Shown: one piece after another, positions 38,216 through 59,619 of the stretch | Numbering within the stretch: position 1 is the first letter of the stretch | Layout of the letters: the number at the start of each line of letters is the position of its first letter | Source of the DNA: Rhodocyclaceae bacterium | GTDB taxonomy: Bacteria; Pseudomonadota; Gammaproteobacteria; Burkholderiales; Rhodocyclaceae | Direction: 5' to 3' | Length of the DNA: 64,000 bases | Assembly: GCA_019455325.1 (NCBI GenBank) | Contig: JACFMQ010000013.1 | Coordinates: forward strand, 32,525-96,524 | Notes under the pieces: model-generated | The model's database searches: none | The model's input: the letters and a program-made list of their open reading frames with translations, nothing else | Told to the model about the DNA's origin: nothing | Program-made: the position numbers and the translations under genes

Positions 38216-38776
38216 ATGTCGGCACCGCACCCACTCAACCAAGCCGTGATCGCCCAGGCCCTGCATGACTTGCGCAACGGCCAGTTGCGCCGCTGCAAGG
38301 CCATGGGCTTCGGCGAGGAAGAGCTGGATGCGCTGAAGCACCCCGAACTCGTGAGCATGCTGGTGAATGCCACGGTATCGTGGTGTTCGGTGTCGGTGAA
38401 CCGGGATGTGTTGAAGCGGCTGCTGAGCCAGATGCACGACGTGGAGCGGGAGATCGCCACGGTGGACCGCATGCTGCGCCTGGGAGCGAGCACGGAGATG
38501 GTCAGCAAGTTCTACGGCCTCACGCATCAGGAAGTGGCGCTGCGCCGCGACATCCTTGGGCTGCCCAAGCGCAAGGGCCGGCATCCGGTGCTCGACGAGG
38601 CGCAGGACGTGGCCTTGTGGGAGCGCTGGAAGGCCGGCATCTCCGAGCGCCATATCGCCCTGACCGACGACATGGCGATGCTGGAGCTGACCATGGATCT
38701 GGCCGAGGCCATGACTCTGCCCATGTCGGTGATCTGGTCGGCGATACGGAACTGGATCGACCAGGAGCTGGTGTAG
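38216..38776 (+). CDS. DUF2857 family ICE protein
   Basis: 186 residues, with AGGAGG 7 nt before the ATG. Family features are the opening NQAVIAQALHDLRNGQLRRCKAMGF and RMLRLGASTEMVSKFYGLTHQEVALRRDILGL, which reads like a helix-turn-helix. This gives it the look of a transcription regulator. It lies between parB and the STY4528-type gene, the standard place in SPI-7 and PFGI-1 elements. Exact role unknown. Confidence 0.82.
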   Translation: MSAPHPLNQAVIAQALHDLRNGQLRRCKAMGFGEEELDALKHPELVSMLVNATVSWCSVSVNRDVLKRLLSQMHDVEREIATVDRMLRLGASTEMVSKFYGLTHQEVALRRDILGLPKRKGRHPVLDEAQDVALWERWKAGISERHIALTDDMAMLELTMDLAEAMTLPMSVIWSAIRNWIDQELV

Positions 38777-41366: not shown

Positions 41367-41487
41367 CCGGCACACACAGCCTTCCGTGCGGAACAAACCG
41401 GGCGCGCATGGGCTGCGGTTTGTTGACTGACGGCCTTCCGGCCGATGCCGATGCTGGCGACTCGCCCCTTCACCGCGAGTCGCTCCC

Positions 41488-43495: not shown

Positions 43496-45511
43496 ATGCG
43501 CGTGTTCCTGTGCGAGAAGCCGTCCCAGGGCAAGGACATCGCCCGTGTGCTGGGTGCCGGTCAACGCGGCAATGGCTGCTACAGCGGCGCGGGTGTCGTC
43601 GTGACCTGGTGCATCGGTCATCTGGTGGAGGCGGTTCCACCCGAAGGCTACGGTGAGCAATACAAGCGCTGGGCCATCGAGCAACTGCCCATTCTTCCTG
43701 AGCGTTGGCGTGTCGAGCCCAAGGCGGCGACCGCAGCGCAATTCAAGGTCGTGCAGCAGCTCGTCGCCAAGGCGGGCGAGCTGGTGATTGCGACCGACGC
43801 CGACCGCGAGGGCGAGATGATCGCCCGTGAGATCATCGAGCTATGCGGCTACTGCGGGCCGATTCAGCGTCTGTGGCTGTCGGCGCTCAACGATGCGTCC
43901 ATCCGCAAGGCGCTGGGTGCGCTCAAGCCGTCCGCCGAGACGCTGCCGCTGTATTTCTCCGCACTCGCCCGATCGCGCGCCGACTGGCTGATCGGCATGA
44001 ACCTGAGCCGCTTGTTCACACTGCTGGGGCGCCAGGCCGGCTATACCGGCGTGCTGTCGGTGGGGCGCGTGCAGACGCCGACGCTGAAGTTGGTCGTCGA
44101 TCGTGATCGCGAGATCGCGCGATTCGTCTGCGTACCGTTCTGGGCCATCGAGGTTGCGCTTTCGCATGCCGGCCAATCCTTCATCGCAAGTTGGACGCCG
44201 CCGCAAGGCAGCACCGACGATGCGGGCCGTTGCCTGCAACAGCCGGTCGCCCAGCAGGCCGCCGACCGCATGCGCGCCGCCGGCTCCGCCCAGGTGCTGC
44301 CGGTAGAAACCGAGCGCGTTCGCGAAGGGCCGCCGCTGCCGTTCGACCTGGGCACGCTGCAGGAGGTGTGCTCCAAGCAGTTGGGCCTCGACGTGCAGGA
44401 GACGCTGGACATTGCCCAGGCGCTGTACGAGACGCACAAGGCGACAACGTATCCGCGCTCGGATTCGGGCTACCTGCCCGAGAGCATGCTGGCCGAGGTA
44501 CCGACCGTACTCGACAGCCTAGTCAAGACCGACCCCAGCCTGCGGCCGCTGATCGAGCGCCTGGATCGCCAACAGCGTTCGCGTGCGTGGAACGACGGCA
44601 AGGTGTCGGCTCACCACGGCATCATCCCGACGCTGGAGCCCGCCAACCTGTCGGCCATGAACGAGAAGGAGCTGGCCGTCTACCGGCTGATCCGCGCCCA
44701 TTACCTCGCGCAGTTCCTCCCGCACCATGAGTTCGACCGGACGGTGGCGCAGTTCTCGTGCGGCAGTCAGTCGCTGGTGGCCGTGGGCAAGCAGATCGCC
44801 GTCATCGGCTGGCGTGAGGTGCTGGCGACGCCGGGGCCGGACGATGCCGGTGGCGAGGATGCGCAGCGCAGCCAGGTGCTGCCCGCCCTGCATGCGGGCC
44901 TGTCCTGCCCGGTCGGAAAGGTGGATCTCAAGGCGCTGAAGATGCTGCCGCCCAAACCCTACACGCAGGGCGAGCTGATCAAGGCCATGAAGACCGTCGC
45001 CAAGTTCGTGACCGACCCGCGCCTGAAACAGAAGCTGCGAGATACCACCGGCATCGGCACCGAGGCGACACGCGCCAACATCATCAACGGTCTGATCGGT
45101 CGCGGCTACCTGGTCAAGAAAGGCCGCGCCGTCCGCGCTTCCGACGCGGCATTCACGCTCATCGACGCGGTGCCCTCGGCCATCGCCGACCCCGGCACCA
45201 CGGCGGTGTGGGAGCAGGCGCTCGACATGATCGAGGCCGGCCAGATGGCGCTGGACGCCTTCATCGAGAAGCAGTCCGTGTGGGTCGGCCAGCTCGTGCA
45301 GCAGTATCGCGGCGCAACGCTCTCGCTCAAGCTGCCGCCGGCGCCGGCCTGCCCGCAGTGCGGCGCACCGATGCAGCAGCGCACGGGCAAGAGCGGCGCG
45401 TTCTGGTCCTGCTCGCGCTACCCGGACTGCAAGGGCACGTTGCCGATCGAGTCCCCGACGGGCCGGCGCAGCGCACCGCGCAAGCGGCGCGCTGCCTCCA
45501 AGGTGTCCTGA
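43496..45511 (+). CDS. topB: DNA topoisomerase III of the ICE
   Basis: 671 residues, type IA topoisomerase. The N-terminal Toprim region begins MRVFLCEKPSQGKDIARVLG, with the acidic triad in DADREGEMIAREI. The catalytic Tyr is in KATTYPRSDS, and VLSVGRVQTPTLKLVVDRD is conserved. A C-terminal zinc ribbon (CPQCGAPMQQRTGKSGAFWSCSRYPDC) is followed by a basic tail. It probably decatenates or resolves ICE replication and transfer intermediates. AAGGAG lies 7 nt before the start. Confidence 0.95.
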   Translation: MRVFLCEKPSQGKDIARVLGAGQRGNGCYSGAGVVVTWCIGHLVEAVPPEGYGEQYKRWAIEQLPILPERWRVEPKAATAAQFKVVQQLVAKAGELVIATDADREGEMIAREIIELCGYCGPIQRLWLSALNDASIRKALGALKPSAETLPLYFSALARSRADWLIGMNLSRLFTLLGRQAGYTGVLSVGRVQTPTLKLVVDRDREIARFVCVPFWAIEVALSHAGQSFIASWTPPQGSTDDAGRCLQQPVAQQAADRMRAAGSAQVLPVETERVREGPPLPFDLGTLQEVCSKQLGLDVQETLDIAQALYETHKATTYPRSDSGYLPESMLAEVPTVLDSLVKTDPSLRPLIERLDRQQRSRAWNDGKVSAHHGIIPTLEPANLSAMNEKELAVYRLIRAHYLAQFLPHHEFDRTVAQFSCGSQSLVAVGKQIAVIGWREVLATPGPDDAGGEDAQRSQVLPALHAGLSCPVGKVDLKALKMLPPKPYTQGELIKAMKTVAKFVTDPRLKQKLRDTTGIGTEATRANIINGLIGRGYLVKKGRAVRASDAAFTLIDAVPSAIADPGTTAVWEQALDMIEAGQMALDAFIEKQSVWVGQLVQQYRGATLSLKLPPAPACPQCGAPMQQRTGKSGAFWSCSRYPDCKGTLPIESPTGRRSAPRKRRAASKVS

Positions 45512-46287
45512 TCCTCGCTTCCCCCTGCCGCGCCGGCCACTTCACTGGCGGCGAGGCAAACGTCCCGCACCGCGCGGGACTCCAAAGCGCGCGTCTCCTT
45601 CTGCAACGGTGTGCGCGCCCCGTCTGCCCGCCATCGGGCGACGGGCGAGAAGGTCATTGCTCCACGAATCGCGCCCGCCGCCATTCCCTTGATCGGTGTG
45701 CCTTGCCTCCGTCATGAGGGGCTTCCTGACGCCTTGCCGCCGCGCGAGCCGTGAGGAGGCCCCTTGGGCTGAGGGTATTCCGTGCCGGTGCCCGCCGGCG
45801 GAACAACGGGCTCCCTTTGTGCGCGTATGCGTGCCAAAGGTTTCCGGCCCCAGCCACGAAACGGGCCGGGTGCGATTGCTGACGCAGCGGATGGCTTTGA
45901 CGACGGCCCGCGCTGACGCAGCCCACAGGTGGTTTTCCTTCCTCTCCAGCCGAAGGTCCGCGTGGCCTTCGGCGCCCTGGTCCTTGCCTTGTCCCGTGAC
46001 GCGGGCCTGCCTAAAGCGGGCCGTCCGCGATTCGGTTTTCCCTGCGACGACAGCCATGCTGCGCGCCCATCCTCACGCCATGCGTTGCTGACAGTCGTCA
46101 GCGGCATGCCCTGGCAGTCTCGGTCTTCAAGACTGCAACGCGGTTCGCCGCGTTGACCGATCCAGTCCGCCTCGCATCGCCCACCGCGGACGCTCGCCGG
46201 CCTGGCGACGATGCACTTTTCTCAACCACCCGAGGGGAACCCATCCCCTGCGGGATGCGTGCTCCCCGACCCACCAAGGAGCACGGC
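45512..46287. other. 776-bp ICE intergenic region
   Basis: Open frames occur on both strands (for example 45696-46091 plus and 45542-46057 minus), but none has a ribosome site, a motif or convincing codon use. Inverted repeats include CCGAAGG (45950-45956) with CCTTCGG (45966-45972). The end holds the first triple-hairpin element (46087-46154) and a small hairpin (46233-46249). It could carry an origin of transfer or replication, but no such site was identified. Confidence 0.5.
46087..46154 (+). repeat. Triple-hairpin element, copy A
   Basis: Three stems in series. GCTGAC (46087-46092) pairs with GTCAGC (46097-46102). GCAGTCT (46114-46120) pairs with AGACTGC (46130-46136). AACGCGG (46137-46143) pairs with CCGCGTT (46148-46154) around a TTCG loop. 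The 11-nt spacer between stems 1 and 2 is GGCATGCCCTG. Copies B, C and D keep the same layout with compensating stem changes. Confidence 0.85.
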
Positions 46288-46524
46288 ATGTCTGAACCTT
46301 CCGCATCTTCCTCTGCAACCGCAGTGGGCAGTGGTGCGCTGGCGCTGGCCTGGACCCGCAAGCGTTTGCCGCTACAGGTGCTGCGCAGCGCGGCCGGCCA
46401 CTACATCGGCACGCAAGACGACGAAGGCCCGGTATCGCGGGAGTCCGTCGAGTATTTCCCGAACCACCTCGCAGCACAGCGTGCCCTGGATACCCATGCC
46501 TGGACACAGCGCGCTCACCCCTGA
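46288..46524 (+). CDS. Small ICE protein of unknown function
   Basis: 78 residues, with AAGGAGC 6 nt before the ATG. It has a Ser-rich N-terminus and a middle QVLRSAAGHYIGTQDDEGPVSRESVEYFPNHLAAQRAL that reads like a small beta-rich fold followed by a helix. It is not recognised as a named family. It is the first gene of the series of small ICE genes and is followed at 25 bp by another unknown gene. Confidence 0.7.
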   Translation: MSEPSASSSATAVGSGALALAWTRKRLPLQVLRSAAGHYIGTQDDEGPVSRESVEYFPNHLAAQRALDTHAWTQRAHP

Positions 46525-46549
46525 TTCCCACCCTTCAAGGAGTTCTCTC

Positions 46550-46942
46550 ATGAATCTGTCTTTACCCGAAGACGTGCTCGATCAGATGGCGCTGGAACAG
46601 GCGCACTTCGACGCTGCACCGCAGGCCTTCTTCCAGGCCTGGAAGCGCGGCGCGCAGATCGCCGGCCACGAGTGGTTCGGCGACGGCACACGCGAAGGTC
46701 TGCAGCGTGCCACCACCAAGTGGGACCTGCGGCCCAACATGCTGATGCTCAACGACGCCCTGGGCGTGCTGAGCAGCGGTCAACGCATGTTCCTGTCCGC
46801 GATGGTGAGCTTCTACAACTCCCGCGAGGGCGGCGCGATGCTCAAGCGTTGCGGCTTCGAGGGGCTGTCCGACTTCGGCGGCCTCGATCTGGAACGGCGC
46901 CAGGTCATCGCTGACCTCACGCTGCACTACAACGGCTGGTGA
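46550..46942 (+). CDS. ICE protein of unknown function
   Basis: 130 residues, with AAGGAG about 9 nt before the ATG. It is predominantly helical: LPEDVLDQMALEQAHFDAAPQAFFQAWKRGAQIAGHEWFGDG, then MFLSAMVSFYNSREGGAMLKRCGFEGLSDFGGLDLERRQVIADL. No catalytic motif is seen. Conserved placement between topB and DUF3577-type genes suggests a core ICE role in DNA handling rather than cargo, but this is inference. Confidence 0.72.
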   Translation: MNLSLPEDVLDQMALEQAHFDAAPQAFFQAWKRGAQIAGHEWFGDGTREGLQRATTKWDLRPNMLMLNDALGVLSSGQRMFLSAMVSFYNSREGGAMLKRCGFEGLSDFGGLDLERRQVIADLTLHYNGW

Positions 46943-46982
46943 GCCGCGCCTGGCAACCCACCGTCCATTCATCCCACCCCAC

Positions 46983-47026
46983 GAGGGACATGCGTCCCCG
47001 TTCGGGGCCATGTCCCTCCTTCTTTT
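46983..47026 (+). terminator. Compound hairpin with a T-rich tail
   Basis: GAGGGACATG (46983-46992) pairs with CATGTCCCTC (47009-47018), with an inner CCCC/GGGG stem around GTTC. It is followed by CTTCTTTTC. It may terminate the unit ending at 46942. It is followed at once by a ribosome site and a minimal reading frame. Confidence 0.6.
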
Positions 47027-47039
47027 CGCAGGAGCGGCC

Positions 47040-47066
47040 ATGTCCCGAATCACCATCTTCCACTGA
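47040..47066 (+). other. Eight-codon reading frame with a good ribosome site
   Basis: AGGAG at 47030-47034 precedes ATG at 47040, and the frame reads MSRITIFH then TGA. It is too short for a functional domain. It could be a leader peptide for the gene at 47193 or the remnant of a gene cut by a mutation. Translation is unproven. Confidence 0.3.
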
Positions 47067-47192
47067 CCTGCACCGCCCGCCACCAGGGCGGCCCGACGCC
47101 GCGGCCGGCTGACCGGCTGCCACTTCATCCACTCACTGGGGTTCAATCCCCGGCAGGGGATTGCCTCGGCCATCCTCTGCTGGAGGAATCCC

Positions 47193-47909
47193 ATGTCTCA
47201 TTCCAAAAACCCCTTCGTCCGAGGCTACGATGGCCTGTCCGTGCAGCGGCTGTTGGCGATTTCCTACGACGACGACTGCCCGCTGAGCTATCTGCCGCTG
47301 CACGTCTCGCAGTCGCACCTGCTGGACAGCCAGGTCGAGCGCCATGCCTGCGTCTTCTGCGACGACTTCGCGCTGATCACGGAAGGCCAGAACGTGCCGC
47401 CCGAGCTGGACGCGCAGTGTCCCAGCCACGGCATCGCCCGAAACCTCGTCTACGCCGTCATGGCCGAAGAAGCCGGCCAACCGCTGCACGTCGGCGATAC
47501 CCACTCCGAGGAAGCCGCGCGCGAGGTGGTGCGGCGCCTGCGCTTCGAGACCGGCTTCTACAGCCGTGCCTGGGAAATCAGTTCGGCGCACATCACCGAG
47601 GAGGCCGGCCGCTTCCTCGCCGAACTGGCGGACGTCGCTACGCCGAGCGGCTTTCTGTTCGTCGCCTTCCGCATTCCCTACAGCCCGGCGGTCGGCGTGA
47701 AGCTGATCGCCACCCCCTGGACGGATGCGAACCCGCAGCATGTCGAGGGCATCACTGCCGAAGAGCTGCGGCAGGAGCACCGGGCCAAGGGCGTGCCGGA
47801 GTCCCTCGTGGAGGTGTTGCACCTGGCTGCGCGCGCCGACGTGCGGCTGCTGATCTTCGATGCCGACGCGCCCGTGCTGGACGGACTGACGCTCTACGAC
47901 GACGAGTAA
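47193..47909 (+). CDS. ICE protein of unknown function, possibly DUF5983-like
   Basis: 238 residues. The first half has a Cys/His-containing stretch (ERHACVFCDDFALI and QCPSHGIARN) that could form a small metal site. The second half contains YSRAWEISSAHITEEAGRFLAELAD, which recalls proteins labelled DUF5983, though this match is from memory. A GGAGGA site precedes the ATG by 6-7 nt. It ends at a good terminator. No enzymatic motif. Confidence 0.68.
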   Translation: MSHSKNPFVRGYDGLSVQRLLAISYDDDCPLSYLPLHVSQSHLLDSQVERHACVFCDDFALITEGQNVPPELDAQCPSHGIARNLVYAVMAEEAGQPLHVGDTHSEEAAREVVRRLRFETGFYSRAWEISSAHITEEAGRFLAELADVATPSGFLFVAFRIPYSPAVGVKLIATPWTDANPQHVEGITAEELRQEHRAKGVPESLVEVLHLAARADVRLLIFDADAPVLDGLTLYDDE

Positions 47910-47923
47910 CCCGCAACCCATTC

Positions 47924-47951
47924 GAGCCCCCACGTCGGGGCTCTTCTTTTT
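47924..47951 (+). terminator. Rho-independent terminator after the 238-residue ICE gene
   Basis: GAGCCCC (47924-47930) pairs with GGGGCTC (47937-47943), followed by TTCTTTTT. It lies 15 bp after the stop codon. Confidence 0.8.
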
Positions 47952-48028
47952 CGCGGAACGCGGTGCCGGCGCATTGCCGATTCCCAACGGACGGCCGCAG
48001 CCATGTGCCGCACGCTGGCCGCATGTTC

Positions 48029-48095
48029 GCTGGCGTTGCCGGCAGCATGCCCAGGCAGTCGAGACCTTCGAGACTGCGGCGCGGTTCGCCGTGCT
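48029..48095 (+). repeat. Triple-hairpin element, copy B
   Basis: Stem 1 is GCTGGC (48029-48034) with GCCGGC (48038-48043). Stem 2 is GCAGTC (48055-48060) with GACTGC (48072-48077). Stem 3 is GGCGCGG (48078-48084) with CCGTGCT (48089-48095) around TTCG, using G-U pairs where copy A has Watson-Crick pairs. The spacer between stems 1 and 2 is AGCATGCCCAG. Confidence 0.85.
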
Positions 48096-48137
48096 GGTTG
48101 CTTCGTTCTCCGGGCGCACTCGCGTCCATCCACCTCA

Positions 48138-48165
48138 CCCTCAAGGGATCGACCTCCCTTGAGGG
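48138..48165 (+). promoter_or_regulatory. 10-bp leader hairpin before the 265-residue ICE gene
   Basis: CCCTCAAGGG (48138-48147) pairs perfectly with CCCTTGAGGG (48156-48165) over an 8-nt loop. It is about 20 nt before the AAGGAG of the gene at 48200. No T-run follows. Confidence 0.7.
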
Positions 48166-48199
48166 CGGGAGTCCCTTGGTTGCCACAAGGAGTCTCCCC

Positions 48200-48997
48200 A
48201 TGGATACCCAAGCCATCCGCGCACAGATGCCGACGCTCGTCGTCGGTCATGTGCCTTCCAACGTCCGTTCGTTCAAGTTCAACATCTTCGACGGCCAGCC
48301 CAAGGTTTCGACGCTGGGCTTTCACATAGACCCGAAGCCTTTCGAGGGCAAGGTCATCGCCACCACCGACGAGGCCATCATAGTCAAGACGGCACGGGCC
48401 GAGTTCGCGGTGCTTGATCGCACCCTCGTGACCGAAGTGCCCGACGAGGGCGCCAAGGTGCAGGTCGAACCCTATGTCAGACGCCGCTTCGACGGTCAGC
48501 GGGCGGACACGCCCGAGGAGCAGACCGAGTTCACCGCCGACGGCCAGCCCTACACGGTGAAGCGGTTCGTGCTCGGTTCCGCACCGGCGAAGCTGCCGAT
48601 CCCCGAGCCGCGCTGCCCCGAGCTGCAGGAACTGATCGTCCAACTGGAGCAGTTGCCCGCTCCCGATGGTTTCCGGCGCATCACCCACCTGTTGGTGGAT
48701 GCCGGTGCGCGGGACATCACCTGGGTCGATCCGCTGCCTGCCGACATCATCCGCACGCCACCGGCCATCGGCTTCACCGTCGACACGATGAAGTTCCAGG
48801 GTCGCGTCACCGTGCTGTATGAGCGTGGCCTCGACCTCTACGCGGTGGAGCTGCGCCGCGACGGCGAGCTGGTCGAACGGGTCGATGAGGTGTTCTTCGA
48901 CACCCTCGGCGAGACGCTGGAACGGCTGATTGACGACGGGAGCTGGAGGCGCATCCGCGTGCAGTGCCTGTCGAGTCGCAAGGCTGTCCGGCACTGA
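48200..48997 (+). CDS. ICE protein of unknown function, 265 residues
   Basis: AAGGAG lies 7-8 nt before the ATG at 48200; an open frame extends far upstream but has no start signals there. The protein is soluble and beta-rich (SFKFNIFDGQPKVSTLGFHIDPKPFEGKVIATTDEAIIVKTARAEFAVLDRTLV), with a C-terminal half of similar style (VTVLYERGLDLYAVELRRDGELVERVDEVFFDTLGETLERLI). This may indicate two related domains. It is not recognised as a named family. It is followed by a strong terminator-like hairpin 10 bp after the stop. Confidence 0.7.
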   Translation: MDTQAIRAQMPTLVVGHVPSNVRSFKFNIFDGQPKVSTLGFHIDPKPFEGKVIATTDEAIIVKTARAEFAVLDRTLVTEVPDEGAKVQVEPYVRRRFDGQRADTPEEQTEFTADGQPYTVKRFVLGSAPAKLPIPEPRCPELQELIVQLEQLPAPDGFRRITHLLVDAGARDITWVDPLPADIIRTPPAIGFTVDTMKFQGRVTVLYERGLDLYAVELRRDGELVERVDEVFFDTLGETLERLIDDGSWRRIRVQCLSSRKAVRH

Positions 48998-49006
48998 CCT
49001 CTCAGC

Positions 49007-49039
49007 AGCTTCCCGCCCTCGCGGCGGGAAGCTTCTTTT
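49007..49039 (+). terminator. 11-bp stem terminator or attenuator
   Basis: AGCTTCCCGCC (49007-49017) pairs with GGCGGGAAGCT (49023-49033), followed by TCTTTTC. It lies between the stop at 48997 and the ribosome site of the gene at 49063. Confidence 0.75.
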
Positions 49040-49062
49040 CCTGCCCCCTGGAGATCACACCC

Positions 49063-49428
49063 ATGACTGTTCGATTCAAAGGCACGGAGCTGCGGCCCGT
49101 GCTCGCCGAAGCGGTGGCGAACCAATGCCGCGTCATCCTGGTCAAGGATCAGGGCGTGTACTTCCTGGCCGAGCGCGGCGAGCGCCGACCCGATGGTCGC
49201 CAGAAGACCATCGCCTATGCCGCCGGCTGCAACCCGGATGTCGATGGCTTCGACGACTGGTGGGAACTGGCGCGTGCCAAGTTCGGCGGCGATGACTTTG
49301 GCGAGTTCTTCGATCCGCAGGAGGGCGTGTTTGCGCGCATCCTGCGCAGCGAGGACGACCTCGACGTGTCCGCTACCACGACACACCTGTCGCTGCAGGC
49401 GGTTCCTTCCACGCCCAGCGGTAACTGA
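49063..49428 (+). CDS. DUF3085 family ICE protein
   Basis: 121 residues. The family signature is at the N-terminus: RFKGTELRPVLAEAVANQCRVILVKDQGVYFLAERGER. A conserved acidic and aromatic middle follows (NPDVDGFDDWWELARAKFGGDDFGEFF). Small single-domain protein of unknown function found in plasmids and ICEs. The ATG has CTGGAGA 9 nt upstream. Confidence 0.82.
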   Translation: MTVRFKGTELRPVLAEAVANQCRVILVKDQGVYFLAERGERRPDGRQKTIAYAAGCNPDVDGFDDWWELARAKFGGDDFGEFFDPQEGVFARILRSEDDLDVSATTTHLSLQAVPSTPSGN

Positions 49429-49547
49429 CCGCCCATCCCTGGCCCCCGCTCCGGGAGCCTCTTTCTTCCCGGCAATGTGGACAGCCGCGAGTGCCGATTG
49501 CCGCTCGCCTGCGCGCCATCCCGGCGCCACGCTTCCGGCCATGTTCC

Positions 49548-49617
49548 GCTGACGTCCGTCAGCGACATGCCCAGGCAGCCACGATCTTCAAGGCTGCGAC
49601 GCGGTTCCGACCGCGTT
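49548..49617 (+). repeat. Triple-hairpin element, copy C
   Basis: Stem 1 is GCTGAC (49548-49553) with GTCAGC (49558-49563). Stem 2 is GCAGCC (49575-49580) with GGCTGC (49592-49597), a T-A to C-G type double change relative to copies A and B. Stem 3 is ACGCGGT (49599-49605) with ACCGCGT (49610-49616). The spacer is GACATGCCCAG. Confidence 0.85.
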
Positions 49618-49772
49618 GATCACCCCAGTTCGCACCGGCATCCATGCGCGAACGGCCATCGGTTCTCGATGGCGATGCCACCAAGCTGTTCCATCAACCC
49701 ACGCGGGGGTTCCACACCTTCCCCGCCTTGGGTCGGGTGTGTCTCCGCCTCATTGTTCCCAGGAGATTCACC

Positions 49773-50324
49773 ATGACCACTTCCAACGAAAAATCCTACT
49801 TCGATCTGCACATCACAGGCCTCGGGTACCTCAATCGCATCCGCGAAGTGAAGCCCAAGAAAGGCGATGCGTTCCTGGCCTGCGACATCGCAGCCCTGAA
49901 CGGTCCCAGCGACGACGTCTCGTATGTGCGTTTCGACACGCGCGTATCGGGTTCGGAAGCGCAGCACCTGGTGCGCCGCTGCATTCAGGCGGTCGACGCC
50001 GAGAAGAAGGTGATGATTGGCTTCCGCCTGGGCGACCTGTGGACCGACACCTTCACCTACTCCAAGGGCAAGCGTGCCGGCGAGCAGGGGGTGAGCCTCA
50101 AGGCCCGCCTGCTGTTCGTCAGTTGGATCAAGGTCAACGGCAAGCTCGTCTACAAGGCCGAGCCCAAGCCGACCGAGACCGACGAGCGGGACCCGGAAGT
50201 CCCTGTGACGTCCGACGCGCCCGCTGCGCAGCAAGCCTCGGCACCAGAGCCTTCGGAGCCCGTCGCCGATGCTGCCGACGACGCAGCCGATGCCCCCGCA
50301 TTGGCCGTTGCCGAGTCGTTCTGA
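49773..50324 (+). CDS. STY4534 family (DUF3577) ICE replication protein
   Basis: 183 residues. The N-terminal domain (about 1-125) has the family features SYFDLHITGLGYLNRIREVKPKKGDAFLACDIAALNG and VRFDTRVSGSEAQHLVRRC. This resembles an OB-like single-strand DNA-binding fold. The C-terminal 55 residues are Ala/Pro/Glu-rich and end in an acidic, aromatic tip (ALAVAESF) reminiscent of SSB tails. CAGGAG lies 7-8 nt before the ATG. It is probably part of the ICE replication machinery. Confidence 0.85.
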   Translation: MTTSNEKSYFDLHITGLGYLNRIREVKPKKGDAFLACDIAALNGPSDDVSYVRFDTRVSGSEAQHLVRRCIQAVDAEKKVMIGFRLGDLWTDTFTYSKGKRAGEQGVSLKARLLFVSWIKVNGKLVYKAEPKPTETDERDPEVPVTSDAPAAQQASAPEPSEPVADAADDAADAPALAVAESF

Positions 50325-50329
50325 TCCGC

Positions 50330-50351
50330 AAGGCCCCATCCCCGGGGCCTT
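50330..50351 (+). promoter_or_regulatory. Leader hairpin before the DUF3275 gene
   Basis: AAGGCCCC (50330-50337) pairs with GGGGCCTT (50344-50351) over a 6-nt loop. The tail GTCTTCTCTTC is only partly T-rich, so it may be an attenuator rather than a full terminator. It starts 5 bp after the preceding stop. Confidence 0.65.
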
Positions 50352-50379
50352 GTCTTCTCTTCGTCAGCAGGAGACCTTC

Positions 50380-50991
50380 ATGATCACCATCCCCGGCCAA
50401 CTGGCCATCAAGACCATCCACGGCAGGAACGGCGACTTCAACGTCGGCCGCCTCGCGACCTCGATCGGCGAGTTCGTCGTGAAGAACGCCGAACTCGATC
50501 AGTACCGGGAGGGCAAGTACGACGGTGATTTCGCCATCGTCGAGATTCGCCCCTCCACGTACAACGCCAACGGTCGCATGGTCATCGAGATCCGCGCCCA
50601 TCTGGGCGGGATGACGCTGTCCAACATCGACGCCCTGAGCCGCGACGAAGCCCGCCGGCTGAGTCCGCAGGAAGTCGATCCCATCGACGAGGAAGCGCAG
50701 GTGCCCGCGCCGGCATCGCCCCCGGTCAAGCCGAAGGCGAAGTCGCGCAGTCCGCGCGATCCCCTGGTCGATACCACGCCGTTCGGCAGCGAGCCGGCCG
50801 CCGCATCCCCCGAGGCCTCGGCCGAGGCGGACGACGTCGCGCTCTTCGGTGCGCTCTGGCCGCTGGGCGAGATCGTCAAGCTCGACGCCACCGTCGATCG
50901 CCGCTTCCTGCGTCAGCAGCGCGACCGTCTCGGTGCCTTGGGCTACGAGTTCGCTCCACTGTCCCAAGACTGGCATCTCGCCACGGCCTGA
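50380..50991 (+). CDS. DUF3275 family ICE protein
   Basis: 203 residues, with AGGAG about 6-7 nt before the ATG. The N-terminal domain (about 1-85) reads ITIPGQLAIKTIHGRNGDFNVGRLATSIGEFVVKNAELDQYREGKYDGDFAIVEIRPS, the family signature. A charged linker (about 105-150) and a short C-terminal domain (DVALFGALWPLGEIVKLDATVDRRFLRQQRDRLGALGYEF) follow. Function unknown. It is conserved beside STY4534-type genes, which suggests work on ICE DNA. Confidence 0.85.
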   Translation: MITIPGQLAIKTIHGRNGDFNVGRLATSIGEFVVKNAELDQYREGKYDGDFAIVEIRPSTYNANGRMVIEIRAHLGGMTLSNIDALSRDEARRLSPQEVDPIDEEAQVPAPASPPVKPKAKSRSPRDPLVDTTPFGSEPAAASPEASAEADDVALFGALWPLGEIVKLDATVDRRFLRQQRDRLGALGYEFAPLSQDWHLATA

Positions 50992-51022
50992 CTCCAACCG
51001 CCGCGCCAGCGGCGTTCCACCA

Positions 51023-51047
51023 CCCACCGGGGTTCCTCCCCGGTGGG
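51023..51047 (+). promoter_or_regulatory. 10-bp leader hairpin before the DUF932 gene
   Basis: CCCACCGGGG (51023-51032) pairs perfectly with CCCCGGTGGG (51038-51047) around TTCCT. It lies about 20 nt before the AAGGAG of the gene at 51082 and is the clearest of the G-run/C-run leader hairpins. Confidence 0.75.
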
Positions 51048-51081
51048 GCGGGGCTCCGGTCTCTCATCCAAGGAGATCGTC

Positions 51082-51909
51082 ATGCAACTCTCATCCCGCT
51101 TCGCTTATCGCTCCCCAGTGCTGCGGTCGAATCACCCGCTGTCCGATGACCAGATTCGCACCGTCGCACCCTCCATCTTCGCGGACACACCGCACGAAAG
51201 CCGCTCCGGGCGGTACAGCTATATCCCCACGGCGGCAGTGCTGACCGAACTGCGCAAGGAAGGCTTCCAGCCGTTCATGGTGTGCCAGACCCGTGTGCGC
51301 CAGGAGGACCGCCGCGATTACACCAAGCACATGCTGCGGCTTCGCCACGCCAGCCAGATCAACGGCACCGAGGCCAATGAGATCATCCTGCTCAACTCGC
51401 ACGATGGCACCAGCAGCTACCAGATGCTGGCGGGCATGTTCCGCTTCGTCTGCCAGAACGGCCTGGTGTGCGGCGACACGTTCGCCGACGTGCGCGTACC
51501 TCACAAGGGCAACGTCACCGATCACGTGATCGAGGGCGCCTACGAGGTGCTGCATGGGTTCGAGCAGGTGCAGGACTCGCGCGACGCCATGCGTGCCATC
51601 ACACTCGACGACGGCGAGGCCGAGGTCTTCGCCAGATCGGCCCTGGTCCTCAAGTACGACGAACCCGGCAAGACCCTGCCGATCACGGAAAGCCAGATCC
51701 TGCGTCCCCGTCGTTTCGACGACAACCACGCGGACCTGTGGTCCACGTTCAACCGGGTCCAGGAGAATCTCGTCAAAGGCGGCCTGACTGGTCGCAGCGC
51801 CAACGGGCGCCAGCAGCGCACACGCCCCGTCCAGGGCATCGATCAGAACGTCCGGCTCAACCGGGCGCTCTGGCTGCTCGCGGAAGGCCTGCGCAAGCTG
51901 AAAGCCTGA
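51082..51909 (+). CDS. DUF932 family protein
   Basis: 275 residues. Family features are YSYIPTAAVLTELRKEGFQPFMVCQTRVR, then HMLRLRHASQ, EIILLNSHDGTSSYQMLAGMFRFVCQNGLVCGD, and the C-terminal NVRLNRALWLLAEGLRKL. DUF932 proteins (YfjQ-like) are widespread in plasmids, phages and ICEs, often beside anti-restriction genes, but their activity is not established. AAGGAG lies 8 nt before the ATG. It ends at a terminator-like hairpin. Confidence 0.87.
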   Translation: MQLSSRFAYRSPVLRSNHPLSDDQIRTVAPSIFADTPHESRSGRYSYIPTAAVLTELRKEGFQPFMVCQTRVRQEDRRDYTKHMLRLRHASQINGTEANEIILLNSHDGTSSYQMLAGMFRFVCQNGLVCGDTFADVRVPHKGNVTDHVIEGAYEVLHGFEQVQDSRDAMRAITLDDGEAEVFARSALVLKYDEPGKTLPITESQILRPRRFDDNHADLWSTFNRVQENLVKGGLTGRSANGRQQRTRPVQGIDQNVRLNRALWLLAEGLRKLKA

Positions 51910-51915
51910 CTCCCA

Positions 51916-51952
51916 GCGGATCGTGCCCATCGCGGCATGGTCCGCCTTTTCC
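51916..51952 (+). terminator. Terminator after the DUF932 gene
   Basis: GCGGA (51916-51920) pairs with TCCGC (51941-51945), with an inner TGCC/GGCA stem, followed by CTTTTCC. It is 6 bp after the stop. Confidence 0.6.
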
Positions 51953-52319
51953 TTCGCTGATCTGCGAGGTGGGCTTACGATCTCAAAATGACCCGTTGCT
52001 TCCATTCGAGCGTCACCGGCCAGCGTCTGCTTTGCAGGGCGTTATCGGTCACTTGCTCTCTCTAGCCAACTGACGATCTCGAGGGGGGCTGCAGCAGTTG
52101 GCGAGGCCAATAGGCTCGTCGTGATCCCGAGCACGTTTATGACCGCTGACGGCGTGTGACGGCATCGGCATGTGGCTTCCAGCCCGTCGCTTCAACGCCG
52201 GTCACTTCGTCTAGCCACGCGATTTGACCGGCACGTGAGGCCTGAATCGAACTTGCGCCCCGAAAGGCAGTATTGCTTACATGTAGCGGCGTAGACATCG
52301 TTTCGAAGAGCTCGCGACG
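51953..52319. other. Intergenic stretch at the left edge of an insertion
   Basis: About 370 bp without a supportable gene. Composition becomes less GC-rich than in the ICE core. It separates the DUF932 gene from the convergent 556-residue cargo gene and probably contains the left boundary of that insertion. No terminal inverted repeats or target duplications were recognised. Confidence 0.45.
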
Positions 52320-53990
52320 TTACGGCGGATCATCAGAATGCCGCCATGGGCCTAAACCATGCGCTTGCAGGTCAAGTTGGAACTGCTCCGGATCCACGAA
52401 GCGGAGGAGACGAAGCTGATCGGGCGCCCGCAGCATCGCATAGGCATCCATACCAGGCAGGTCTGATGGACTCCACCCGAAGAGCGCATCGCGGTAATAA
52501 AGGTGGTCCCTGAGCAGCTGATACGGCTTGACGGATGTGCCAACAATGGCCGGTCGCTTCCGTGCCATCTCCGACAGCCTAGCGCCAGCCTGGCGGGATT
52601 GGGTGATCAGGTTCTGCAAGCTTGCATCAAAGCGCTGCAGAGGATTACAGATCGCAGACACACTTGGTGCGTGAGTAATTTCGTTGAAGAAGGCCACGCA
52701 CTCCATCACGTGCGAGTCATAGAAGCTTGGTTCGGGGCGGGGGGACCAGTCCGAGAAGGGTGTCGGAATAGAGTCGATGCACATCTCCATCGACTGCGGC
52801 ATGTTGTCAATTCGCACGCGCAGCAGGGGATTTAGTGCCTCGAACATGAACGGGCCAGGCCCAGCGAGTCGCAGCGCGATTAGGATGCTCGCAGCGTCCG
52901 CAGCGATTTTGCCAAGTTGTCGGCCGTCAGCTCTCGCAACAACCCGATGTAAGCACTGCTGTGCTAATTCATTGCGGCCATGGTGAAGGTGACAGCGCCC
53001 CTCTGCGTAGTCGATGACAAACATCAACAAGCCCGACGAGGCGACCGCGTGCGAATCCGCACGCAACTTGTCGAAATTCGCTTCGTCCAGATCGTTCACC
53101 TGAGCGCCAAGCTGGTAGTACTCCTTTAATAGATTCAAATCAGGGTCGAGGTAGCCCCAGTACATGCGAATGCGGTTTTGCTGTGCTTCCTCTGGGGAGA
53201 CCCCGTCCCTGTCCCGGCCTGCAAGCAACTTACCGGCAGCTAGCGCAACAAGATCGCGCTCTGGAATAATCTCGGCGGCCATAGCGCACAGCCGCATCGT
53301 CGCCATGCCTGCGAGGTACAGCCGGCGAACCGCGTCAACCGCGGCGTCAAGTTCCTGCGAAGAGGAGTAGCTGCTCTGCATTTCAACGCGCAGGTTGGCG
53401 AGGTCCTGCTCGATGGACGAGTGCTTGCGCTGAGAGCGCTGATCCAGTCTGGCGAGCGTCGATCGGAACTCGGGGGCGTTCACGCCCTCAGGAATCGCTC
53501 GCTTGACCGAAGCCTTCCAGGTAGCTAAATAACTCATGGCGTCACCCGTGAGTGAAGCGGCATGCGCTTCAAGCAGCTGCCGAGCGCTGTCTAACACCGA
53601 CTCAGGGTGCTGGCGGGCAGCATCAAGCATCTGAGCAATCCATGGGGCCGCCCAGACCTCAATGAAGCGCCGCAGCCCTTCTGCCTCCGTCGCCTCAGTG
53701 ACCAGTGGGATAGACCTGGCATCGGTCAGTGCCGTTTCGGCGTCGAGCAGCCGGGCTTGTACAAGGCTTCGGAGCGCTTCGTTCGAGCCCGCGAGCAGAT
53801 CCAAGAGCCGGTCTTGGAGGCCAGAACGGTGGGTCGAGCCACTATAGGTGTCGATCCGGCCACCAAACGAGCCGAGGCTGGCGAGCGCATCCTCTTTGTT
53901 TCGTGCAATCCCAAGGCCAGAGGCCAAGCCGTCAATGACGGCGGAGAAGGTCGGCAAGCGTGCGTAGCCTGATGGCGTGGGGATGAGCAT
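52320..53990 (-). CDS. Unknown 556-residue ICE cargo protein
   Basis: Not recognised. The start at 53990 has GGAA 5 nt upstream; an in-frame ATG at 54071 would add 27 residues. The protein is mostly helical, with Leu/Ala-rich repeats (LQDRLLDLLAGSNEALRSLVQARLLDAETAL; RCHLHHGRNELAQQCLHRVVARADGRQLGKIAADAASILIAL) that look like TPR or other helical-repeat units. The C-terminal part (LLRDHLYYRDALFGWSPSDLPGMDAYAMLRAPDQLRLLRFVDPEQFQ) is distinctive. No signal peptide, membrane helix or nuclease motif is seen. It is transcribed against the ICE core and diverges from the 93-residue gene at 54149. It is a candidate defence or stress gene on position alone. Confidence 0.65.
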   Translation of the reverse strand: MLIPTPSGYARLPTFSAVIDGLASGLGIARNKEDALASLGSFGGRIDTYSGSTHRSGLQDRLLDLLAGSNEALRSLVQARLLDAETALTDARSIPLVTEATEAEGLRRFIEVWAAPWIAQMLDAARQHPESVLDSARQLLEAHAASLTGDAMSYLATWKASVKRAIPEGVNAPEFRSTLARLDQRSQRKHSSIEQDLANLRVEMQSSYSSSQELDAAVDAVRRLYLAGMATMRLCAMAAEIIPERDLVALAAGKLLAGRDRDGVSPEEAQQNRIRMYWGYLDPDLNLLKEYYQLGAQVNDLDEANFDKLRADSHAVASSGLLMFVIDYAEGRCHLHHGRNELAQQCLHRVVARADGRQLGKIAADAASILIALRLAGPGPFMFEALNPLLRVRIDNMPQSMEMCIDSIPTPFSDWSPRPEPSFYDSHVMECVAFFNEITHAPSVSAICNPLQRFDASLQNLITQSRQAGARLSEMARKRPAIVGTSVKPYQLLRDHLYYRDALFGWSPSDLPGMDAYAMLRAPDQLRLLRFVDPEQFQLDLQAHGLGPWRHSDDPP

Positions 53991-54148
53991 CGGTTTCCGT
54001 GATTTCCGGTGGAGCAGAACGGCGTGAGCGGCAAATATCGCATTGTCGACGCCCCGAGGTCGACGCGTCATCCAACCAGATGAAGCAAATGCAAATGCAG
54101 GGCCGGCGACGATACCGCGCCGACCCTACCTACATAAGGAGTAAACAT

Positions 54149-54430
54149 ATGCTCACGAACGTTGTCAAAACAGTTTCCGGCACTGCCGGTGAAGCGCTGG
54201 AAGTGCGAGCCTTTAATCGTCTGCAAGAGCGCTATCGCGATCCGCAGGTCGTGAAGGCGATTGTTGAACATGAGCTTGACGCAGCCGGCGAAACCTGGGA
54301 CAGCTTCAATACCTACATGCGGGTGAAGCAAAAGGTCCAGAACGACCAGATCAGCATCGTTCGCGCAGCCGAGGAGGCCGAATCGCTTGCGAAAAATTAC
54401 TTAGGAGCAGCCGGCTTCGGTGGGGCATAA
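54149..54430 (+). CDS. Unknown 93-residue protein, divergent partner of the cargo gene
   Basis: AAGGAG lies 7 nt before the ATG. It is helical and charged: EALEVRAFNRLQERYRDPQVVKAIVEHELDAAGETWDSFNTYMRVKQKVQNDQISIVRAAEEAESLAKNYLG, ending in a Gly-rich tail. It is not recognised. The gene starts 158 bp from the divergent 556-residue gene, so one control region may serve both. Lower GC in the start region than in neighbouring ICE genes supports a separate origin. Confidence 0.65.
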   Translation: MLTNVVKTVSGTAGEALEVRAFNRLQERYRDPQVVKAIVEHELDAAGETWDSFNTYMRVKQKVQNDQISIVRAAEEAESLAKNYLGAAGFGGA

Positions 54431-54689
54431 CACTCGCGGCTCACGCCAAAGTGCCTCCTAGCGGCAGTTACCGGCAGTTTAGACTGCAACGTCGGCGACT
54501 GTCCGCTTCTGGCGATCTGCCTTCGTCTCGCCCGGGTTGCCGAACCGCGCTACCGCGAACTGAGAAGAGGGCATTGCTGGCCAGCGCCCTCCTCAGGGTA
54601 TCGGGGCCAAGCAGGTGAACAAGGGCACGCTGCAAAGCGGTTTTTCGCTACGGCCCATTGATCACCTGAAGCAATCTGCCCTCATGTCC
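54431..54689. other. Right edge of the insertion, with a long hairpin
   Basis: No gene is supported. A long stem is present: CTGAGAAGAGGGC (54560-54572) pairs with GCCCTCCTCAG (54586-54596), with a two-base bulge and an inner GCTGGCCAGC. The fourth triple-hairpin element begins at 54690, where sequence typical of the ICE core resumes. Confidence 0.5.
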
Positions 54690-54755
54690 GTCGGCGTTGC
54701 CGACAACATACCCAGGTAGCCAAGACCTTTGAGGCTACGGTGCGTTGCGATGCAC
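54690..54755 (+). repeat. Triple-hairpin element, copy D
   Basis: Stem 1 is GTCGGC (54690-54695) with GCCGAC (54699-54704). Stem 2 is GTAGCC (54716-54721) with GGCTAC (54733-54738). Stem 3 is GTGC (54740-54743) with GCAC (54752-54755). The spacer is AACATACCCAG, 11 nt as in the other copies. Primary sequence has diverged most here, yet stems 1 and 2 stay fully paired. Confidence 0.8.
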
Positions 54756-54803
54756 AGGTCGTTCTCTTCGCCAAGCCGTTCCCGGCGCTTTCTTCCACCC
54801 CTT

Positions 54804-54820
54804 GGGGCAGCAATTGCCCC
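54804..54820 (+). promoter_or_regulatory. Leader hairpin before the 216-residue ICE gene
   Basis: GGGGCA (54804-54809) pairs with TGCCCC (54815-54820) over a 5-nt loop, about 30 nt before the ribosome site of the gene at 54861. Confidence 0.6.
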
Positions 54821-54860
54821 GGCGGGCGGTGCTGTCTCCGATTCCTTCGAGGACCACAGC

Positions 54861-55511
54861 ATGCCTGTCACCCATCCTTCCAAGACGCTGTACCGCATCG
54901 ACGAATGCCCCGACCTCATGGCCGACGGTTACGTCGGTGACGAGCAGGGCAATCTCGTCTTTCTCTCGATCTGGGCGCGCGACACCGCCGTTCAGGAGTT
55001 CCTCGCCCGCCTGACCCTCGGCCGGGATGAGCAGGGACTGGATCAGTTCCACGTCATCACCGAGCAGGGCGCATCCATCCCGGTCTTCGTCGGCAACGTC
55101 GAGAACCTGGAAAAGCGCATCACCCGCGCCTATCGGCGAACGCTGTTCGGTTCGCTGACGAATGTGTGGCTGTTCGATCGTCGCTGCGTGAAGCCAGACA
55201 AGGCCAACGCCAGCGCGCTGGCGCTTCTGCCCAGGGATTCCGCCCGCCGGCTCGACCGGCTGTGGACGCTGGTGCAGGACACCTGCCCGCTGCCACTGCT
55301 CGACCACTGGCGCGACACCGTGCTGGAGCTGTTGCAGACCCGGCGGATGCTGACCGGTCTTCCCTTTGCCCTCGGGCCGCTGGAAGGCCATCGGCTGGCC
55401 CTCGATGTCCCGTCGCTGACGAAGGCGTTGGGCGAGCTGTTCCGCAACGGCACCCTCGGCGCCACGCAGTACGAACTGGCCGCGAACGCACCGCTTCGGC
55501 GTGTGGCGTGA
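54861..55511 (+). CDS. ICE protein of unknown function, 216 residues
   Basis: CGAGGA lies about 10 nt before the ATG at 54861. It is a soluble protein with an N-terminal part reading TLYRIDECPDLMADGYVGDEQGNLVFLSIWARDTAVQEFLARLTLG and a helical C-terminal part (RRLDRLWTLVQDTCPLPLLDHWRDTVLELLQTRRML). It is not recognised as a named family. It precedes the DUF6094-like methyltransferase by 65 bp, a usual order in this ICE class, so a shared role in DNA modification is possible. Confidence 0.72.
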   Translation: MPVTHPSKTLYRIDECPDLMADGYVGDEQGNLVFLSIWARDTAVQEFLARLTLGRDEQGLDQFHVITEQGASIPVFVGNVENLEKRITRAYRRTLFGSLTNVWLFDRRCVKPDKANASALALLPRDSARRLDRLWTLVQDTCPLPLLDHWRDTVLELLQTRRMLTGLPFALGPLEGHRLALDVPSLTKALGELFRNGTLGATQYELAANAPLRRVA

Positions 55512-55521
55512 GCCATCCCCA

Positions 55522-55546
55522 CGGGCATGCGCGCCGCGCGTGCCCG
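55522..55546 (+). promoter_or_regulatory. Leader hairpin before the methyltransferase gene
   Basis: CGGGCA (55522-55527) pairs with TGCCCG (55541-55546), with an inner CGCG/CGCG pairing. It lies between the stop at 55511 and the CAGGAG site of the next gene. Confidence 0.6.
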
Positions 55547-55576
55547 CCTTCCCTCATCCATCACCAGGAGAAATCC

Positions 55577-56686
55577 ATGGCACTCATGTTTCCGCGCCTG
55601 GCGCGCAATTTCATCCGTAACGGCTACTTCCCCACCGACGAGCAGACGCTGGAGCGGGCCTTGTCCGCACTGGCGCCGTCTCCTGGCGCCATGGCCATCC
55701 TCGATCCCTGCGCCGGCGAAGGCGTGGCGATTGCCGAAGCCGCCCACGCCCTCGGGCGCGAGCAGGTCCAGGCCTTCGCCGTCGAGTACGACGCCGAGCG
55801 TGCCCGCCACGCACGGCAACTGGTCGATCGCTGCATCCACGGTGACCTGATGGACACGCTGATCTCGCGCCAGTCCTTCGGGCTGCTGTGGCTGAACCCG
55901 CCGTACGGCGACCTGAGCAAGGACGTGAACGGCAACATCGGCTATCAGGGCCAGGGCCGTGCGCGGCTGGAAAAGCTGTTCTATCAACGTGCGCTGCCGC
56001 TGCTGCAGTACGGCGGCGTGTTGATCTTCATCGTGCCGTCCTACGTGCTCGACGCCGAGCTGGTCGGATGGCTGACGCGCCACTTCGCCGACCTGCGTAT
56101 CTACCGTGCGGTGGAGACGCAGTTCAAGCAGGTGGTGATCTTCGGTCGCAGGATTCGCCAGCGCGACCAGGCATCGGAGTCGGTCAAGGCCGTGCGCGGT
56201 CTGCTGCTGCAGATCGGACAGGGCGACGCCGAGGCCGAGGAACTACCGCTCGAATGGCCGTTCCTGCCGTACAACGTCCCTGCCAGCCCGGCCGAGCCGG
56301 AGCACTTCTATCGCGTGACGATGGAGCCCGAGCAGTTCGCCGATGAAGTCGGCCGGCTACAAGGACTCTGGCCGGCGCTCGGTACGCACCTGGGCGCCGC
56401 GCAGCAATCGCTGCGTCCGCCCGCGCGGGCCTTGTCGCACTGGCATCTCGCCCTGGCCCTGGCCGCAGGCGCGATCTCCGGCGTGGTGAAGTCCAAGAGC
56501 GGGCGCGTGCTCGTCGTCAAAGGTGATACCCACAAGGAGAAGACCCTCCAGACGGAATACACCGAACGCGACGACGGCTCCGTGGCCGAGACGCGCATCC
56601 TCACCGACAAGTTCGTGCCGGTCATTCGTGCATGGGATCTGACGCCGGGCTCCGCCACGCGGGGCGAGGTGCTGACCATCCGCTGA
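55577..56686 (+). CDS. SAM-dependent methyltransferase, DUF6094-like
   Basis: 369 residues. The SAM-binding motif is ILDPCAGEGVAIAEAAHAL (about 36-55), with the acidic loop AVEYDAERARHARQL, and the catalytic NPPY in LLWLNPPYGDLSKDV (about 108-112). NPPY marks N6-adenine or N4-cytosine DNA (or Gln/rRNA) methyltransferases. The C-terminal third (about 250-369) is unassigned. ICE-borne adenine methylases can shield incoming DNA from restriction; that role is inferred. AGGAG lies 7-8 nt before the ATG. No restriction partner is adjacent. Confidence 0.88.
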   Translation: MALMFPRLARNFIRNGYFPTDEQTLERALSALAPSPGAMAILDPCAGEGVAIAEAAHALGREQVQAFAVEYDAERARHARQLVDRCIHGDLMDTLISRQSFGLLWLNPPYGDLSKDVNGNIGYQGQGRARLEKLFYQRALPLLQYGGVLIFIVPSYVLDAELVGWLTRHFADLRIYRAVETQFKQVVIFGRRIRQRDQASESVKAVRGLLLQIGQGDAEAEELPLEWPFLPYNVPASPAEPEHFYRVTMEPEQFADEVGRLQGLWPALGTHLGAAQQSLRPPARALSHWHLALALAAGAISGVVKSKSGRVLVVKGDTHKEKTLQTEYTERDDGSVAETRILTDKFVPVIRAWDLTPGSATRGEVLTIR

Positions 56687-56728
56687 TCGCTGTTCCCTGA
56701 CGGTTCGCCGTCGCTTTCATCCACCCAC

Positions 56729-56746
56729 CGGGGTCACGTTGCCCCG
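56729..56746 (+). promoter_or_regulatory. Leader hairpin before the 101-residue ICE gene
   Basis: CGGGG (56729-56733) pairs with CCCCG (56742-56746), followed by further G-run and C-run sequence up to 56764. It lies before the AAGGAG of the gene at 56789. Confidence 0.55.
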
Positions 56747-56788
56747 CTGGGGGTGCCGTGGCCCCTTCGTCCACAAGGAGAAACCACC

Positions 56789-57094: not shown

Positions 57095-57147
57095 TCCGCA
57101 TCCAGCGGCACCTACAGTTTTCTTTGCCGCGTCTTTCTTCCCACCCA

Positions 57148-59524: not shown

Positions 59525-59619
59525 CCTGGCAAATCGGAAGCCGATGGATTCGCTTTGTTTGCTGCGGCAGAGGGCCGGCGCGGCGATGGTGATGACTCGT
59601 TGTTTCAGGACACCGATCC

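Follow-up and report, generated by a model that had tools for sequence, protein, structure and literature searches.

The put RNA of phage HK022, about 70 nt long and made up of hairpins, lies just downstream of the promoter putL and suppresses termination (PMC9378689), and canT of Tn916 (PMC11658703) and conAn of pLS20 (PMC8955417) are RNAs near the start of conjugation operons with internal terminators, an arrangement that the locus described here may share. Both canT and conAn are Gram-positive, the former having been studied as a 452-bp fragment and the latter also needing a protein. The radC RNA (Rfam family RF01754, type Cis-reg), which lies upstream of genes in Proteobacteria, was first published by Weinberg et al. 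in 2010, where its table row reads Y, y, ?, Proteobacteria, in a passage that does not include the column headings (PMC2864571). No stated function for it was found in the passages of the literature searched, which is no proof that none is in print. Here, we describe four radC RNA copies among genes of an integrative and conjugative element (ICE) in a 64,000-nt stretch of Rhodocyclaceae bacterium (assembly GCA_019455325.1, contig JACFMQ010000013.1, positions 32,525 to 96,524, forward strand; the window), and put forward, as a reading that comparison of sequences makes quite possible, if still short of probable, that the radC RNA is a cis-acting antiterminator heading ICE transfer operons.

The sequence-only reading of this region had presented four triple-hairpin elements, here A to D, as potentially novel, a claim that falls with an Rfam search in which all four match RF01754 at full length, at 121.3 (A), 102.2 (B), 131.1 (C) and 83.5 (D) bits against a cut-off of 40. 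Elements A to D are copies of this known family, and scores so far above the cut-off exclude a chance origin. The matches are longer than the elements as first described, and are laid out as follows:

Element A, radC RNA, 46069..46214, + strand: stem 1 46087-46102, linker 46103-46113, stem 2 46114-46136, stem 3 46137-46154; predicted pseudoknot, also + strand, between loop 46122-46125 and 46155-46158.
Element B, radC RNA, 48012..48169, + strand: stem 1 48029-48043, linker 48044-48054, stem 2 48055-48077, stem 3 48078-48095; predicted pseudoknot, also + strand, between 48063-48066 and 48096-48099.
Element C, radC RNA, 49530..49678, + strand: stem 1 49548-49563, linker 49564-49574, stem 2 49575-49597, stem 3 49598-49617; predicted pseudoknot, also + strand, between 49583-49586 and 49618-49621.
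Element D, radC RNA, 54673..54817, + strand: stem 1 54690-54704, linker 54705-54715, stem 2 54716-54738, stem 3 54739-54756; predicted pseudoknot, also + strand, between 54724-54727 and 54757-54760.

The helix order equals that of RF01754, and the anatomy originally ascribed to the elements stands when they are read and folded: the stem 1 arms are GCTGAC/GTCAGC (A and C), GCTGGC/GCCGGC (B, with one G-U pair) and GTCGGC/GCCGAC (D), the stem 2 arms are GCAGTC/GACTGC (A and B), GCAGCC/GGCTGC (C) and GTAGCC/GGCTAC (D), the linker between them measures 11 nt in every element (GGCATGCCCTG, AGCATGCCCAG, GACATGCCCAG, AACATACCCAG), and all four lie between genes on the + strand. No fifth copy is present in the window in the Rfam search even at E ≤ 1, and a search of the whole genome returned the same four. 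STAXI RNAs, which had been suggested as an analogue, have no match in the window at E ≤ 1; they are likewise found near DNA-handling genes but, unlike the radC RNA, are repeated pseudoknots (PMC2864571). Beyond the published description of RF01754, we add a predicted promoter and start at CATG, a predicted pseudoknot, and terminator-like hairpins.

Comparison loci were collected by a protein search with the DUF3275 product, using the best 80 of 159 confirmed relatives (the nearest being from Cupriavidus cauae), and supplemented with four plasmid loci; orientation was set by the protein for the 80 loci and by a single radC match for each plasmid locus. A covariance model built from 20 copies (20 of 24 rows, leaving out L012:9169, L019:9169, L040:7227 and L036:7650) found 210 radC RNA copies in 85 sources (four from the window, 196 from the 80 loci and 10 from the plasmid loci), all of them on the + (gene) strand. 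At least one copy is present in 77 of the 80 loci, and the 57 loci of at least 20 kb carry one to four each. Besides the four window copies, 15 copies in six diverged loci pass the RF01754 cut-off. A strictly filtered search of 369 sampled genomes of the class found the radC RNA only in the window's own genome and in one other, G262; the RNA also occurs on Alphaproteobacteria plasmids (L087, L094, L095). We note that an IncF-type plasmid of Enterobacter ludwigii (L086:13618-20095) carries an ICE-like block in which four radC RNAs head unlike genes.

Selection on folding, as first proposed from compensatory changes among the four elements, is supported by an alignment (A3) of the best 150 of the 210 copies fitted to the covariance model, in whose 62 distinct rows 98.6% of stem cells pair and 10 of 19 pairs have changed on both sides. 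The observed values of five covariation measures were reached by none of 500 shuffles in a test by pair counting rather than R-scape, where base changes track copy types, such that the independent events are fewer than the alignment cells. Over 126 distinct rows, the stems comprise 2122 Watson-Crick pairs, 194 G-U pairs, 11 A-C cells, 51 other mismatches, and 16 gaps, and the excess of G-U over A-C cells indicates that the mRNA-sense strand is the strand under folding selection, in agreement with a structured regulatory RNA. Unpaired bases are conserved in the linker and in the stem-2 loop.

By the same comparative approach, a covarying pseudoknot is predicted to join the stem-2 loop to the four bases behind stem 3 (GGTC/GACC, GATC/GATC or GACC/GGTC), and this pairing is supported outside the training rows. 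Across its four core pairs, 247 of the 248 A3 cells hold a standard pair; the two middle pairs show 15 and 16 double changes, and a possible fifth pair is seen in 24 of 62 rows. In loci outside model building, 51 of 57 distinct loop/tail combinations are fully complementary, compared to a mean of 34.8 and a maximum of 42 upon shuffling, as are 41 of the 47 combinations missing from the model's own alignment; several of the non-complementary exceptions resemble one-base alignment offsets. The pseudoknot is perhaps not new, since PMC7657543 lists radC/RF01754 among families gaining covarying pairs beyond those in databases, and may thus already imply it.

Upstream of the radC RNA, we analyzed the 57 representatives left after the copies with 150 bases upstream had been thinned at 68% identity. 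A 28-nt box, AAtGCGG...TGCcGATTgC, is present in 52 of these 57 diverged regions, ending 43-46 nt before stem 1, with a log-likelihood of 469 compared to 96-102 in five mononucleotide-shuffled sets. In 49 of the 52, the hexamer xANNCT follows the box by 25-27 nt (26 nt in 41 cases, 27 in seven, and 25 in one), and any other offset from 0 to 35 nt is seen in at most two cases. The corresponding elements in the window are:

Promoter box of A, 46013..46040, + strand: 25.8 bits; -10-like CATCCT at 46068-46073; CATG at 46079.
Promoter box of B, 47957..47984, + strand: 23.5 bits; -10-like CACGCT at 48011-48016; CATG at 48022.
Promoter box of C, 49474..49501, + strand: 27.1 bits; -10-like CACGCT at 49528-49533; CATG at 49540.
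Promoter box of D, 54618..54645, + strand: 18.9 bits; -10-like CAATCT at 54672-54677; CATG at 54683.

A sigma-70-like -35 is present in only three of the 52 box-type regions. Eleven copies from four Stutzerimonas / P. veronii plasmids have instead TTGACA or TTGACT, a 17-nt spacing, and a -10 that stops 12-13 nt short of stem 1, which places this -10 as in the box-type copies. Both promoter types thus predict that transcription of most copies starts at the CATG that opens the radC RNA, which would probably make this RNA the 5' end of the transcript. A generic promoter scan gave one match where 2.4 were expected. A sigma-28-like reading of the box, in which CCGATT resembles the FliA -10, was dropped in view of the conserved -10-like hexamer 26 nt further downstream.

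The box also occurs without the radC RNA, with 53 matches of at least 17 bits on the gene strand (many of them orthologous) and none on the other strand, or 80 against 15 at 13 bits. Two such boxes are found in the window, which also encodes a DUF2857 domain, the type reported in the BisC subunit of the ICEclc activator BisDC (PMC7423338):

Box without radC RNA, 41396..41423, + strand: 17.0 bits, -10-like hexamer at +26; upstream of the AcaB-family gene 41488-42276 (Pfam AcaB).
Box without radC RNA, 59531..59558, + strand: 17.5 bits, -10-like hexamer at +26; upstream of type IV secretion genes, with PilL2 at 59620 (TIGR03748).
DUF2857 domain gene, 38237..38764, + strand: E 1.5e-64; BisC is reported to carry this domain.

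The ICE region of G262 contains nine gene-strand box matches of at least 11 bits, of which three precede a radC RNA and seven are followed, at 26 or 27 nt, by a -10-like hexamer. In the same genome (reverse complement of 1330001-1425000), similar boxes at 17387 and 18852, about 1.5 kb apart, are perhaps a local duplication, the latter lying directly before a gene that matches the AcaB-type operon in position. Like the bistable BisDC promoters of ICEclc, the standalone boxes precede corresponding kinds of operons (PMC9286271, PMC7423338), and the box is probably a binding site of BisDC, the FlhDC-like activator of this ICE family. The published BisDC-regulon motif is 27 bp long (PMC9286271, PMC7423338), and the 28-nt box is putatively the same motif. 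DUF2857 is also encoded by plasmids with sigma-70 promoters (W04, W05, W06, W08) and is therefore uninformative for co-occurrence of BisC with the box; it was not found in three of 11 records (W01, W07, W09), one of which, W01, is from Enterobacter, though its locus L086 has boxes. The promoters of IncA/C plasmids and SGI1 that depend on AcaCD, an activator of FlhDC type, likewise lack an obvious -35, but their core motif, GCCCAAAATGGGC, is unlike the box here (PMC5058578).

Within the units headed by the radC RNA, hairpins resembling intrinsic terminators separate genes of the same direction:

Terminator-like hairpin with T-rich tail, unit A, 46983..47027, + strand: between gene 46550-46942 and DUF5983; -26.5 kcal/mol.
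Terminator-like hairpin with tail, unit B, 49007..49043, + strand: between 48200-48997 and DUF3085, in a 65-nt gap.
Terminator-like hairpin with tail, unit C, 50328..50363, + strand: between STY4534 and DUF3275, in a 55-nt gap.
Terminator-like hairpin with tail, unit C, 51027..51068, + strand: between DUF3275 and DUF932.

The STY4534-DUF3275 hairpin is present in eight of 17 diverged relatives (16 of 170 shuffles), and that between DUF3275 and the next gene in 18 of 20 (38 of 200 shuffles). Across the radC-headed units of 57 loci, a hairpin is found in 54 of 105 distinct co-directional gaps (173 of 301 unthinned), compared to 21 of 420 shuffles and to six of 80 co-directional gaps in a chromosomal control comprising 320 kb of G262 and the window's genome. 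When only gaps of at most 120 nt are considered, the counts are 40/83 in the radC units and 4/47 on the chromosome, and they become 32/83 and 2/47 (33/54 in a separate count) when fewer than 40 nt must separate the tail from the following start codon, a spacing that leaves no room for a promoter behind the hairpin. Smaller controls gave a hairpin in one of nine gaps (window 1-30000) and in two of eight (secretion part of G262); a count of zero in four gaps for window 43400-59600 reflects simple gene calling that merged or missed genes, and analyses of that part with genes set by hand, or with no gene calls, do show hairpins. Reverse-transcription PCR and Northern analysis show that this region of ICEclc is transcribed into polycistronic mRNAs (PMC2892462), and taken together with hairpins that leave no room for a promoter, this means that read-through is likely needed. 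Internal terminators have been described as a good sign that an antitermination system is present, itself near the operon start (PMC8955417).

Starting from the family identity, folding strand, pseudoknot, promoter geometry, and hairpin density, which the sequences support, we infer a mechanism along the following lines. The mRNA would start at the CATG before stem 1, or within a base or two of it, from a promoter consisting of the inverted-repeat box, a poor -35 and a -10-like CANNCT, with BisDC as the putative binder. The nascent RNA would fold stem 1 and then stem 2, whose loop would pair behind stem 3, and the folded radC RNA would stay with the elongating RNA polymerase in cis, allowing the polymerase that carries it to pass the intrinsic terminators between operon genes, as in the case of put, canT and conAn2. 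Stray transcription would halt at these terminators, such that the full operon would be expressed only from its own promoter. In its broadest form, as a widespread RNA-only processive antiterminator of Gram-negative ICEs that begins at roughly the first base of the transcript, occurs up to four times per element, and lets the polymerase cross gene-insulating terminators, the proposal is possible, and we hold it tentatively. The radC RNA differs in build from put, which consists of two stem-loops and is described in PMC9378689 without the word pseudoknot, in having three stems and a predicted pseudoknot, and from canT and conAn in being short and present in up to four copies per locus.

Several observations weigh against antitermination from the predicted start. 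The radC model gave no significant match, with a best E of 0.28, in positions 20000-40000 of HK022 (half the genome, filters off), in a record in which put was not located. The -10 is poor (AAATCT) in three of the 11 sigma-70 sites, three of the plasmids that carry such sites (L089-L091) are closely related, the copies before the radC gene (L088, L092, L094, L095, G262) lie inside a secretion operon and have no recognizable promoter, and L080:7611 has the -10-like hexamer without the box. On ICEclc, nine of 18 upstream fragments, including UR89247 and UR84835 of this region, lack a subpopulation promoter (PMC9286271); these fragments may or may not contain a radC RNA. The start of inrR mapped there by rapid amplification of cDNA ends, at 96,204 (PMC2892462), seems by our own arithmetic to be about 200 nt upstream of its first gene, compared to about 26 nt predicted by the window box. 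Furthermore, the 105 gaps are partly homologous and represent a limited number of places, and 26 of them, 10 with a hairpin, lie beyond 15 kb and are likely unit ends, such that the p-values for the enrichment (6e-11 and 2e-6) are too small. T tracts are often interrupted by C, and some hairpins may thus terminate weakly; box promoters without the radC RNA, which would be the fair comparison, provide only seven distinct gaps, two of them with a hairpin; and terminator-like hairpins also occur in the leaders of genes without the radC RNA.

The main rival to antitermination is that the radC RNA is a 5' leader that binds a protein, a small RNA, or a ligand, and acts on just the first gene, by controlling its translation or local attenuation, which we consider conceivable, if somewhat doubtful. 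A same-strand start codon lies downstream of 209 of the 210 copies, at a distance that is near constant within most copy types (about 130, 100, 151 and 100 nt), deviating distances being due to in-frame alternative starts and missed small first genes. A leader would also account for the conserved unpaired bases, and it fits the operon-internal copies as well as antitermination does. In 45 representatives, a strong hairpin lies between the radC RNA and the Shine-Dalgarno site (mean -20.5 kcal/mol, compared to -13.8 kcal/mol in shuffles), and strong GC-rich hairpins directly precede the ribosome sites of several genes at 47130-47170, 48140-48180, 49700-49750, 51020-51068, 54795-54845, 56725-56770 and 57145-57190, in which one segment (e.g. 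CAAGGG) is able to pair with two later ones; a bistable 1-2 / 1-4 arrangement of this kind is modestly enriched (19/45, compared to 381/1800 shuffles). A CsrA site was considered for these leaders and dropped, as the stem loops, inspected by eye, are without GGA. The core of the radC RNA, however, lies clear of the ribosome site, the more distal hairpins of the operon would be left unexplained, and the first genes are unrelated:

First gene after A, 46288..46524, + strand: 78 aa, no family.
First gene after B, 48200..48997, + strand: 265 aa, no family.
First gene after C, 49773..50324, + strand: STY4534 family ICE replication protein (DUF3577); NF040584 201.6 bits, Pfam.
First gene after D, 54861..55511, + strand: 216 aa, no family; the gene behind it encodes a DUF6094 methyltransferase.

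Judging by its spacing from topB, the gene at 48200..48997 is possibly ORF88400 of ICEclc (PMC2892462), other ORF spacings fitting less well.

It is unlikely that the radC RNA is instead a stability or processing element, that is, a 5' fold protecting the mRNA or a cleavage site yielding shorter mRNAs. The predicted first bases can pair with the linker, and the full set of four pairs is possible in 114 of the 120 distinct rows if sliding by a base or two is allowed (69 of 119 at one fixed offset), and processing is suspected on ICEclc where read coverage jumps and cloned fragments have no promoter (PMC9286271). A plain protective hairpin would, however, need neither the conserved unpaired bases nor the pseudoknot, and the internal copies lie away from a predicted 5' end. 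A single-stranded DNA structure of the + strand acting during transfer, as a loading site for primase or another protein, would fit the single orientation of all 210 copies, and DNA tolerates a certain share of G-T pairs, yet the fixed geometry relative to promoters and start codons points to RNA and makes this very improbable. Least credible of all is the suggestion that these are single-strand DNA promoters like Frpo, in which the folded strand is the template and which sit in the leading region on the transferred strand: although the copies do lie among ICE genes for DNA handling, a template strand would carry 194 A-C mismatches against 11 G-T, and the mRNA-sense strand keeps its pairs behind ordinary promoter hexamers in fixed geometry.

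Elsewhere in the window, the approximately 2.7 kb upstream of the promoter of D (51910-54617, after DUF932) contain a minus-strand open reading frame at 52320-54071 and a small plus-strand one at 54149-54430, neither with a Pfam match, and look like cargo inserted directly upstream of a radC-headed promoter. Two tandem tRNA genes lie at 15764-15942, and the related ICE locus of Castellaniella defragrans contains a fluoride riboswitch (L025:5867-5932, minus strand).

What is new here is the placement of the radC RNA at a predicted transcript start, the support outside the training rows for its predicted pseudoknot, and the proposed antitermination model. The orphan radC RNA family becomes a testable question, namely how elements of the ICEclc type are silent when integrated and have whole operons read when activated. 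If true, antitermination would give this orphan family a function, as an RNA-only counterpart of put and canT, and would mark a step at which a common route of gene spread is controlled.

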